Below, piece by piece: positions 11,209 through 33,173 of a DNA stretch of 33,310 nucleotides. The notes below the pieces were generated by a model, which worked only from the letters and a program-made list of their open reading frames with translations, had not been told where the DNA came from and ran no database searches. A program made the position numbers and the translations under genes. Within the stretch, counting starts at the first letter, position 1, and each line of letters begins with the position of its first letter. Source of the DNA: Microcaldota archaeon (GTDB lineage: Archaea; Micrarchaeota; Micrarchaeia; Micrarchaeales; CABMGC01); assembly GCA_027314605.1 (NCBI GenBank), contig DAHVAM010000006.1, positions 1 to 33,310 of the forward strand. The letters are read 5' to 3'.

Positions 11209-11314
11209 CCCGTTGTAGCTCAATGGCAGAGCGGCCGGCTGTAGCCTGCAATCTTGGAAACAAGCTTCCAAGGAAGATACCGGCAGGTTGAGTGTTCAAC
11301 TCACTCCAACGGGA
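11209..11314 (+). tRNA. tRNA-Tyr(GTA) with 34-nt intron at 37/38
   Basis: Acceptor CCCGTTG/CAACGGG (C1-G72), D-arm GCTC..GAGC, anticodon stem GCCGG/CCGGC, loop CTGTAG^A, T-arm GAGTG TTCAACT CACTC; intron 11245-11278. Confidence 0.93.
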
Positions 11315-29920: not shown

Positions 29921-30100
29921 TTACATGTTCGCTACCTGCAATACAGTGTTGCAGTTGGGACACATTCCGCCGCTGTCAGAATCGGGAAGAGGGAGCTTGC
30001 AGCTTCCGCAGTAGTAAGCAGAGCAGCCGTCGCAATAGAACGAGATGCGGCCGTTGAGCGGCTTGCCGCACGAATTGCACGTTATTACCTGCGTTGCCAT
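29921..30100 (-). CDS. 59-aa zinc-ribbon protein with four CxxC motifs (below ORF-track cutoff)
   Basis: Manual translation MATQVITCNSCGKPLNGRISFYCDGCSAYYCGSCKLPLPDSDSGGMCPNCNTVLQVANM*. Confidence 0.75.
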   Translation of the reverse strand: MATQVITCNSCGKPLNGRISFYCDGCSAYYCGSCKLPLPDSDSGGMCPNCNTVLQVANM

Positions 30101-30389: not shown

Positions 30390-31079
30390 TCAGAAGTTTC
30401 GCACCCTGCACTCCCCGAAACACCCTGAGAACTCCTTTAGCTTCCTTGAGACCTCTGAGGGATTGGCCGCAGGCAGGGAGAGTACTGCAGGATTTATTAT
30501 CTCGCTGCTCTTCGAGAATTGCTGCAACAGCCAGCGCCTTGCGGGTTTTATCTGCTCCGCCATGCTCGCGAGGTCGTCGATAGTCAGCCCTGGCGCAAGC
30601 GTCGTCCTGAACTCATAATCCGATGCGCGCTCTTTGATCAGGCGCATGCTCTCCTTGATCTCATGCGTATCGAGATTTACTCCGGTTATCTTCTGGTATG
30701 CGTCCCACGGCGCCTTGATGTCCATTGCAACATAATCCACGAGGTTTTCATCAAAGATGCGCTTCAGCGCCTTAGGATTCGTGCCGTTCGTGTCGAGCTT
30801 TATCGACATCCCTATGTTCCTCAGCTTCTGGAGGAACTCCGGAAGGTCGGACCAGATTGTCGGCTCCCCGCCGGTGATGACTACAGAGTCGACAAGGCGC
30901 TTCCTCTTGGCAAGCGCATAGAGTATGAACTCGCCGCTTGTCTCCGGAACGTCCCTGAAGACGAGGTTGGAGTTGTAGCAGTAGTGGCATCGCATGTTGC
31001 AGCCCGCCGCGAAGGCTATGCTAGCCACCCTGCCAGGATAGTCTACCAGAGTGGTCTTCTGAAAGCCACCGAAGAGCAA
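30390..31079 (-). CDS. nrdG: Anaerobic ribonucleoside-triphosphate reductase activating protein (radical SAM)
   Basis: AAGCNMRCHYCYNSNLVF CxxxCxxC cluster motif, VVITGGEPTIWSDLPEFL; adjacent to nrdD; apparent TTG start directly after upstream TAG. Confidence 0.88.
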   Translation of the reverse strand: MLFGGFQKTTLVDYPGRVASIAFAAGCNMRCHYCYNSNLVFRDVPETSGEFILYALAKRKRLVDSVVITGGEPTIWSDLPEFLQKLRNIGMSIKLDTNGTNPKALKRIFDENLVDYVAMDIKAPWDAYQKITGVNLDTHEIKESMRLIKERASDYEFRTTLAPGLTIDDLASMAEQIKPARRWLLQQFSKSSEIINPAVLSLPAANPSEVSRKLKEFSGCFGECRVRNF

Positions 31080-31232
31080 CTACTCGCCCACTTTGTAGGT
31101 CTTCCTCTCCTTGAATTCAGACTGTTTGCCGTCGTTCCACTGGTCTACCGGCCTGAGGTATCCGACAACCCTGCTGTACACTTCGCATCTCGTTCTCTCT
31201 TTGTTTTCCATGTTTCCACCAGCATGATTCAT
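31080..31232 (-). CDS. Stand-alone glycyl-radical C-terminal segment of class III ribonucleotide reductase
   Basis: Manual translation MNHAGGNMENKERTRCEVYSRVVGYLRPVDQWNDGKQSEFKERKTYKVGE*; RVVGYL matches the NrdD glycyl-radical motif; start overlaps nrdD stop as ATGA; alternative start at ATG codon 8 preceded by GGTGG. Confidence 0.85.
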   Translation of the reverse strand: MNHAGGNMENKERTRCEVYSRVVGYLRPVDQWNDGKQSEFKERKTYKVGE

Positions 31233-33025
31233 TGAATTCCCAGCTCCGCGTCGCACTTTGGGCAGTACTCGTGCTCCCCGGCTATGTATCCGTGCTTCGG
31301 GCAGACGCTGAACGTAGGGGTAAGCGTGAAATATGGAAGCTTGTAATTCTCGGCGATCTTCTTTACGAGCTCCCTTGCGGTGCGCCAGTCCTCTATGCTT
31401 TCCCCAAGGAAGCCGTGCAGCACAGTGCCTCCGGTGTATTTCGCCTGCAGCTCGTCCTGGAGGTCAAGTGCCTCGAATATGTCATTGGTATGGCCGACAG
31501 GCAGATGGGTGGAGTTGGTGTAGAATGGTGATGGGCTCTTGTCTGCTTCCGAAGGCTTTGCAAGCCCTATGTCAGGATACTTCTTCTTGTCTATCCTCGC
31601 AAACCTGTGCGACGTGCCCTCCCCCGGAGTTGCCTCTAGGTTGTATATGTTGCCCGTCTCTTCCTGATATGCGCCCAGTCGTGATCTTATGTGCTCAAGC
31701 ACCTCGACGGCGAACGCATGGCCCTTTGGATCCTCTATGCCAACATGCATGAAGTTCTTGAGCGACTCGTTCATGCCGAGGACGCCGATGGTGGCGAAGT
31801 GGTTTTTCCAGAACTCTCCGAATCTTGTCTTGATGTCCCGCAGGTAGAACTTCGAGTAAGGATACATACCCTTATCGGTGAGGTTCTCCAGGGCCTTGCG
31901 CTTGACCTCAAGGCTTTCCTTCGCAGCATCCATCAGTTTATCAAGCCTGCTGAAATACTCCTCTTTGCTTTTAGAGAGAAAGCCTATTCGCGGCAGGTTT
32001 ATCGTGACTACCCCTATGCTTCCTGTCAACGGATTTGCGCCGAAGAGCCCTCCCCCTCGCTTTCGAAGCTCCCTGTTGTCAAGCCTTAGCCTGCAGCACA
32101 TGCTCCTTGCATCCTCCGGATTCATGTCGCTGTTCACGAAGTTCGAGAAATAAGGTATGCCGTACTTCGCAGTCATCTCGAAGACAGGCTGGAGGACGCT
32201 CTCGTTCCAGTTGAAATCCTTTGTTATGTTATACGTTGGTATCGGAAAGGTGAAGACCCTGCCTTCGGCATCTCCTTCCTGCATTATCTCAGCAAAGGCC
32301 CTGTTCAGCATGTCCATCTCCTTCTGGAATTCAGAGTACGTCTCCTTTTTGTATTCGCCTCCTACGATCACGTGCTCGTCCCTCATCATCGATGGAACCT
32401 TCAGGTCCATGGTGATGTTGGTGAACGGTGCCTGGAAACCGACGCGCGTGGGTACGTTCATGTTGAAGAGGAATTCCTGGATGGTTTGTTTCACCTGCGC
32501 ATAATCAAGATTATCGTACCGTATGAAAGGCGCAAGATAGGTGTCGAAATCGCTGAATGCCTGTGCGCCGGCTGCCTCTCCCTGCAGGGTGTAAAAGAAA
32601 TTGACTATCTGCCCCAGCGCGCTTCTTAGATGCCTCGGAGGCTTGCTTGAGATCTTCCCACGCACATGGCCGAATCCGCTCAGCAGCAGATCTTTGAGAT
32701 CCCATCCCACACAGTATGCCCCCAGTATCCCCAGGTCGTGGATGTGGAAGTCTCCATCTATGTGCATCTTCCTTATTTCTTCATTGTAGATCCTGTTCAG
32801 CCAGTAGTTGGATATGATCGTGGAGGAGATATGGAAATTGAGTCCCTGCAGCGAGTATCCCATGTTGGCGTTCTCCTTGACGCGCCAATCGCTGCGCTGA
32901 AGGTAATTTTCAACAGATGCCAGGGTATCCGCGTCCTCCATTTTCGGAAGAGAAGGTTCCTTTGACACCATGACTTGCTGCTCGTCAGATTTTTGTCTAT
33001 TTTCAGATTCAGAAAGGCCTACCAT
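31229..33025 (-). CDS. nrdD: Anaerobic ribonucleoside-triphosphate reductase catalytic chain lacking its own glycyl-radical C-terminus
   Basis: DGDFHIHDLG, ARSMCCRLRLDNRELRKRGGGLFGANPLTGSIGVVTINLPRIG, Zn site CPKHGYIAGEHEYCPKC; start set to MVGLSESENR because the longer ORF start at 33142 lies upstream of the TATA and palindromes. Confidence 0.9.
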   Translation of the reverse strand: MVGLSESENRQKSDEQQVMVSKEPSLPKMEDADTLASVENYLQRSDWRVKENANMGYSLQGLNFHISSTIISNYWLNRIYNEEIRKMHIDGDFHIHDLGILGAYCVGWDLKDLLLSGFGHVRGKISSKPPRHLRSALGQIVNFFYTLQGEAAGAQAFSDFDTYLAPFIRYDNLDYAQVKQTIQEFLFNMNVPTRVGFQAPFTNITMDLKVPSMMRDEHVIVGGEYKKETYSEFQKEMDMLNRAFAEIMQEGDAEGRVFTFPIPTYNITKDFNWNESVLQPVFEMTAKYGIPYFSNFVNSDMNPEDARSMCCRLRLDNRELRKRGGGLFGANPLTGSIGVVTINLPRIGFLSKSKEEYFSRLDKLMDAAKESLEVKRKALENLTDKGMYPYSKFYLRDIKTRFGEFWKNHFATIGVLGMNESLKNFMHVGIEDPKGHAFAVEVLEHIRSRLGAYQEETGNIYNLEATPGEGTSHRFARIDKKKYPDIGLAKPSEADKSPSPFYTNSTHLPVGHTNDIFEALDLQDELQAKYTGGTVLHGFLGESIEDWRTARELVKKIAENYKLPYFTLTPTFSVCPKHGYIAGEHEYCPKCDAELGIQ

Positions 33026-33030
33026 GATAC

Positions 33031-33044
33031 CACAATAGGTTGTG
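33031..33044. promoter_or_regulatory. NrdR-box-like imperfect palindrome (proximal)
   Basis: CACAATAGGTTGTG, half-sites CACAA/TTGTG. Confidence 0.6.
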
Positions 33045-33061
33045 TGTTTCATGTCCACAAC

Positions 33062-33075
33062 CACAACATGTTGTG
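33062..33075. promoter_or_regulatory. NrdR-box-like perfect palindrome (distal)
   Basis: CACAACATGTTGTG, 14-bp perfect inverted repeat, 31 bp from the proximal copy. Confidence 0.7.
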
Positions 33076-33084
33076 ATACTTCCT

Positions 33085-33092
33085 TATTTAAA
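33085..33092 (-). promoter_or_regulatory. TATA box of nrdD
   Basis: TTTAAATA on the minus strand; predicted start ~25 nt downstream falls on the distal palindrome. Confidence 0.6.
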
Positions 33093-33173
33093 TCTACTTT
33101 TAAGAAAAAAGGTAAATCCCTAAACAAAAAAAGAAATCGCACTTAAAAACAGAAAAGTATCCGTGTGGGTATC

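Follow-up and report, generated by a model that had tools for sequence, protein, structure and literature searches.

A Class III Ribonucleotide Reductase Very Probably Made of Two Chains, With a Separate Gene for the Glycyl-Radical Domain, in a Microcaldota Archaeon

The nrdD-nrdG Locus

The stretch of DNA analyzed here, referred to as the window, comprises 33,310 nt of contig DAHVAM010000006.1 from a Microcaldota archaeon (GCA_027314605.1). On its minus strand nrdD is followed by a small ORF for a glycyl-radical domain and then by nrdG (Table 1), and both the reading frames and the division of the family profiles described below confirm the original prediction that NrdD is split, with its glycyl-radical domain as an ORF of its own ahead of nrdG. 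The nrdD ORF opens at GTG 33142, with a plausible start at ATG 32971 (580 aa), and its frame (33142-31229) closes CAA TGA after CPKCDAELGIQ, the C-terminal end of the protein being CPKHGYIAGEHEYCPKCDAELGIQ-stop at 31229. A stop just after the Zn-site CPKC had been predicted and is borne out by the sequence, as is the absence of a spacer before nrdG, whose TTG start at 31079 abuts the stop codon of the small ORF.

From ATG 31232, within the ATGA overlap, the small ORF extends to TAG 31080-31082. It had been read from this ATG as a 50-aa ORF; the overlap exists, but the likely start is ATG 31211, which gives 43 aa. The sequence ahead of ATG 31211 is GCTGGTGGAAAC, and GGTGG(A/T)AAA or a close variant stands right before the corresponding ATG in most relatives of the genus and family, which favors this start over the upstream one.

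Elsewhere the window encodes DnaG primase, digeranylgeranylglycerophospholipid reductase and an archaellum-type ATPase, which mark it as archaeal. A 106-nt tRNA at 11209-11314 (+), detected by Rfam and missed by ARAGORN, probably contains an intron, and a 59-aa putative double zinc-ribbon protein is encoded between dnaG and nrdG (29921-30100, minus strand).

Table 1. Coordinates of features at the nrdD-nrdG locus, numbered along the window.
Feature	Position	Strand	Evidence
nrdD, catalytic chain of a class III RNR, glycyl-radical segment absent	31229..33142	-	Pfam NRDD 1-528, NCBIfam PRK08270, AF2 model
Finger-loop motif MCCR, thiyl-radical cysteine	32090..32101	-	Invariant in alignment; motif per PMC9669993
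Zn-site region CPKH...CPKC, C-terminus of NrdD	31253..31303	-	Sequence and alignment
ATGA overlap on nrdD stop codon, upstream alternative start (ATG 31232) of the small ORF	31229..31232	-	Sequence
GGTGG, Shine-Dalgarno-like, 4 nt ahead of ATG 31211	31216..31220	-	Motif common to most genus/family relatives
Separate glycyl-radical domain gene, likely 43 aa, MENKERTRCEVYSRVVGYLRPVDQWNDGKQSEFKERKTYKVGE	31080..31211	-	Pfam NRDD 531-562; conserved in relatives
Codon of presumed radical glycine, Gly17 of the 43-aa chain, in RVVGYL	31161..31163	-	Gly invariance across domains
nrdG, radical SAM activase, TTG start directly after domain stop codon	30390..31079	-	TIGR02495 E 5.6e-58; PF04055

Identity and Conservation of the Two Chains

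The Pfam family NRDD is divided between the two chains, positions 1-528 of the profile (E 5e-184) falling to NrdD and 531-562 (E 5e-11) to the small ORF, and NCBIfam PRK08270 and TIGR02487 show the same division. As this coverage is complementary, no part of the NrdD family is missing. Pfam and NCBIfam thus agree with the earlier assignment of the small ORF as the C-terminal glycyl-radical segment usually fused to NrdD; in Pfam it matches the NRDD family only and does not belong to the PFL glycyl-radical domain family. The window's NrdD has the NRDD profile and barrel fold, the catalytic finger-loop cysteine in MCCR or MGCR (here MCCR) and the adjacent NrdG of a class III RNR, and the C-terminal glycyl-radical segment is present and complete, but on a separate chain.

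An AF2 model of this NrdD without the domain has a class III RNR core (pLDDT 81, pTM 0.83), and its best structural match is P. copri 8p2s (TM 0.78). For one relative (L079), a model of the chain joined by stop read-through predicts the radical hairpin at fair to high confidence (10-residue blocks 78-95), with strands 718-723 and 726-729 around Gly725. An N-terminal ATP cone, present in the consensus of split relatives, is absent from the window's NrdD, and with the cone gone dATP overall control of this enzyme may be lost.

The radical glycine is invariant in the alignment (54/54 split, 37/37 fused and 5/5 extra domains). In all 54 split domains, Ser, Arg, Gly, Pro, Asn, Gly, Lys, Glu and Arg occupy fixed positions, and the invariant residues of the separate domains are those of the fused ones. 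Pooled dN/dS of the separate domain is 0.024 in close pairs of relatives; at about 0.02, the separate domains in relatives are under strong purifying selection. Distances between NrdDs and between domains correlate (r 0.56, with 0 of 5000 permutations as high), the correlation falling to r 0.27 for pairs whose bodies are more than 20% different; NrdD and the small domain co-diverge.

The window's genome has a second RNR, which is of the PF02867 family (G000:C21:198-1805) and taken as class II (NrdJ-type). The class III enzyme need therefore not be essential here, and the idea that it is the genome's only RNR, which would have been a strong argument for its function, was rejected on this ground.

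Split and Fused NrdD Among Relatives

A radical domain was found in 12 of 98 near genomes, the window's own counted, and the class III system is therefore patchy. Ten of these 12 are split, including the window's, more than chance would produce; two, from another family, are fused. A fused NrdD in all close relatives had been named as the observation that would count against the split; the reverse was found, the split being present in each of the five other genomes sampled from the genus. A wider set of 91 NrdD loci comprised 54 split, 32 fused and 5 fused with a second free radical domain, and the 80 loci with NrdD from named genomes comprised 44 split and 30 fused ones, 5 in which a free domain accompanies a fused NrdD, and 1 cut by a contig end. 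Within the window's phylum, a hand count over a 295-genome sample gave 27 genomes in which the domain is clearly separate, 17 in which it is fused (with long linkers in 4) and 2 in which in-frame stops interrupt the sequence. The split recurs in many phyla of archaea and bacteria, isolates included, and is not unique to the window. Split loci differ in frame, in spacing (from an overlap to a gap of about 200 nt) and in the order of the genes, with nrdG lying between nrdD and the small gene in Halanaerobiales, including the isolates Halanaerobium kushneri and Orenia metallireducens.

Other variants were also seen. Split and fused NrdD lie side by side in one genome of the phylum sample (G187:C18:6490-11073). 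Nanoarchaeal split NrdDs (L024, L033, L035, L038, L040) have largely acidic C-terminal tails of 55-381 aa, the frames of which overlap or nearly abut the radical-domain gene. The NrdD bodies of G191:C61 and of a viral record (G307, L174) carry intein-like inserts in a single long frame (1379 and 1080 aa, respectively).

Finished, annotated plasmids with the split come from Cupriavidus necator H16 (pHG1) and Sulfuricurvum kujiense, the latter with nrdD and the domain gene overlapping by ATGA. In pHG1 a domain-less NrdD of 676 aa comes first; 142 nt further on lies the gene for a 66-aa protein, itself annotated nrdD, and then nrdG. This locus is split at the same place as the window's, but has a gap instead of the overlap and a longer N-terminal region before the barrel. 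The domain-less NrdD of H16 computes to 76.19 kDa. A 1999 paper on H16 reportedly gave NrdD as 76.2 kDa, and if this figure is right, the functional enzyme studied there was split. Such small genes are already annotated nrdD in other organisms in RefSeq, and a search of open-access papers turned up no account of a free-standing NrdD radical domain. NrdDG is reported to be essential for complete denitrification in C. necator H16 (PMC2864759).

A change of frame at a single junction is typical of errors in draft genomes, and a sequencing or assembly indel in what is really a fused nrdD would produce one. However, the same split occurs in independent genomes, including isolates and finished plasmids, in other frames and with spacers of up to about 200 nt, and the start of the domain with its Shine-Dalgarno-like motif is conserved, which leaves an indel extremely unlikely.

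It is also conceivable that programmed frameshifting or stop read-through yields a fused NrdD-GRD from the overlapping frames. Several genus relatives have the junction GAAAAATGA, with A-runs where a -1 slip could be imagined, and in relatives such as L079 only an in-frame TAA separates the two frames. The window's CAA TGA, however, comes without a slippery run, and elsewhere the two parts of split loci lie in different frames, far apart or on either side of nrdG. A ribosome-binding motif also precedes the ATG of the domain. No slippery site was found at the window's junction, junction geometry varies among split loci, and no genetic code was found that joins the window's NrdD and GRD into one chain. 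We consider frameshifting or read-through very unlikely.

Decay of the gene, leaving an NrdD without its C-terminus, a remnant fragment and a class II RNR that does the work, would fit the presence of a class II enzyme in this genome and the patchiness of class III among relatives. Against this stand the selection acting on the relatives' separate domains (dN/dS as above), the intact state of every catalytic and radical-site residue and of nrdG, and the sharing of the split state by whole clades, and decay is therefore very improbable. The split class III RNR is real and recurrent; it is visible in database annotation and undescribed in the open-access papers searched.

On a quick tree of the 91 NrdD bodies, which does not resolve the direction of change, the split label requires 8 changes, at least 4 of them forced by well-supported branches, and splitting or refusion has therefore occurred repeatedly. 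The split and fused states have interchanged at least four times on well-supported branches. The window's NrdD falls outside the NrdDs of its own genus, where the surrounding forks are weakly supported.

The Proposed Two-Chain Enzyme and Its Known Counterparts

The reading first proposed for this locus, a class III RNR whose radical subunit is a chain of its own, has the best support: the sampled genus is split throughout, and many phyla have the split. The window very probably encodes a class III RNR of two polypeptides, NrdD and a radical subunit of ~5 kDa, plus the NrdG activase. Both chains would be translated from one operon, the small one from its own GGTGG-ATG start. NrdG would abstract a hydrogen from Gly17 of the small chain, the hairpin of which would sit non-covalently in the NrdD barrel, at the usual position of the fused C-terminus, and the radical would pass from there to the MCCR cysteine. 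In fused enzymes the radical domain swings out to NrdG and back into the barrel (PMC12662201), and such a movement would fit a non-covalent version. The small protein could be replaced after oxygen damage without remaking NrdD.

Fused class III NrdDs (T4, T. maritima, P. copri and S. thermophilus structures; PRK08270 subfamily) share with the window the barrel, the Zn site, the finger-loop MCCR (a motif described in PMC9669993), the radical hairpin sequence and the nrdG activase in the operon. The window differs from them in that its hairpin is a separate chain and its copy lacks the ATP cone. The solved class III RNRs that we found carry the radical on the enzyme's own C-terminus. An RNR catalytic chain in two polypeptides is also known from the split class II RNR of Pseudomonas aeruginosa, NrdJa/NrdJb (PMC4520616, PMC9669993), but NrdJb carries predicted IscU-like and zinc finger domains and no radical, unlike the window's small chain.

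The PFL spare parts GrcA/YfiD and T4 Y06I, to which the small protein had been compared, are likewise small free glycyl-radical domain proteins for a larger enzyme. The comparison holds only to that extent. GrcA doubles a domain retained by the intact enzyme and comes into play once O2 has cleaved that enzyme (PMC8683613), whereas the window's NrdD ends at the Zn site and never has the domain. GrcA/YfiD is also of the PFL family, while the small protein is of the NrdD family. Lacking a radical segment of its own, NrdD would need the small protein as an obligatory subunit and not as a repair part. A role as a GrcA-like spare part and nothing more, with another radical domain normally serving NrdD, has the GrcA precedent (PMC8683613) and the extra free domains beside fused NrdD in Moranbacteria-like loci in its favor. 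However, one such domain was found in the window's genome, which is about 85% complete and might hold a second copy elsewhere, and NrdD itself carries none; this explanation is extremely unlikely.

Free Radical Domains in Viruses and Moranbacteria-Like Loci

The Moranbacteria and viral free domains are nearer to GrcA in logic than is the window's small protein. Five Moranbacteria-like loci (L047, L054, L056, L057, L073) have a fused NrdD followed by a free protein of a CxxC...CxxC ribbon and a radical domain. Stand-alone NrdD-type domains are also common in viral contigs without NrdD (L126, L127, L130-L209), where the free domain has a short form and a zinc-ribbon form. NrdD was absent from the flank at 62 of 84 viral loci, and among whole viral records (24-122 kb, some maybe fragments) the free domain stood alone in 28 of 30, with a split NrdD in 2 of 30. 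One free domain lies among terminase, portal and head genes (L134), and the 38-kb record of the ANMV-1 virus holds another (L121:2680-3114) and no NrdD. The radical-glycine motif is present in 64 of 64 viral separate domains, 16 of which have two CxxC. A query of the ANMV-1 type retrieved no relatives from viral contigs, and one of the Moranbacteria form retrieved four.

That further glycyl radical enzymes have spare parts has been considered possible but undemonstrated (PMC8683613). By analogy, the viral copies may be an RNR counterpart of T4 Y06I, which serves PFL. More broadly, the NrdD radical domain could be an exchangeable, trans-acting cofactor protein, an obligatory subunit in split enzymes, of which viral and Moranbacteria-like copies would plug into the host enzyme and restore or boost dNTP synthesis; we see the case for and against this as evenly balanced. 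Phages and archaeal viruses might provide the host RNR with fresh radical cofactor, as their free domains suggest.

The two-chain arrangement explains small database "nrdD" genes that resemble fragments. Natural two-chain RNRs would allow charged and uncharged radical subunits to be mixed and radical transfer between chains to be measured, and could be used to test the repair of oxygen damage by swapping a 5-kDa part.
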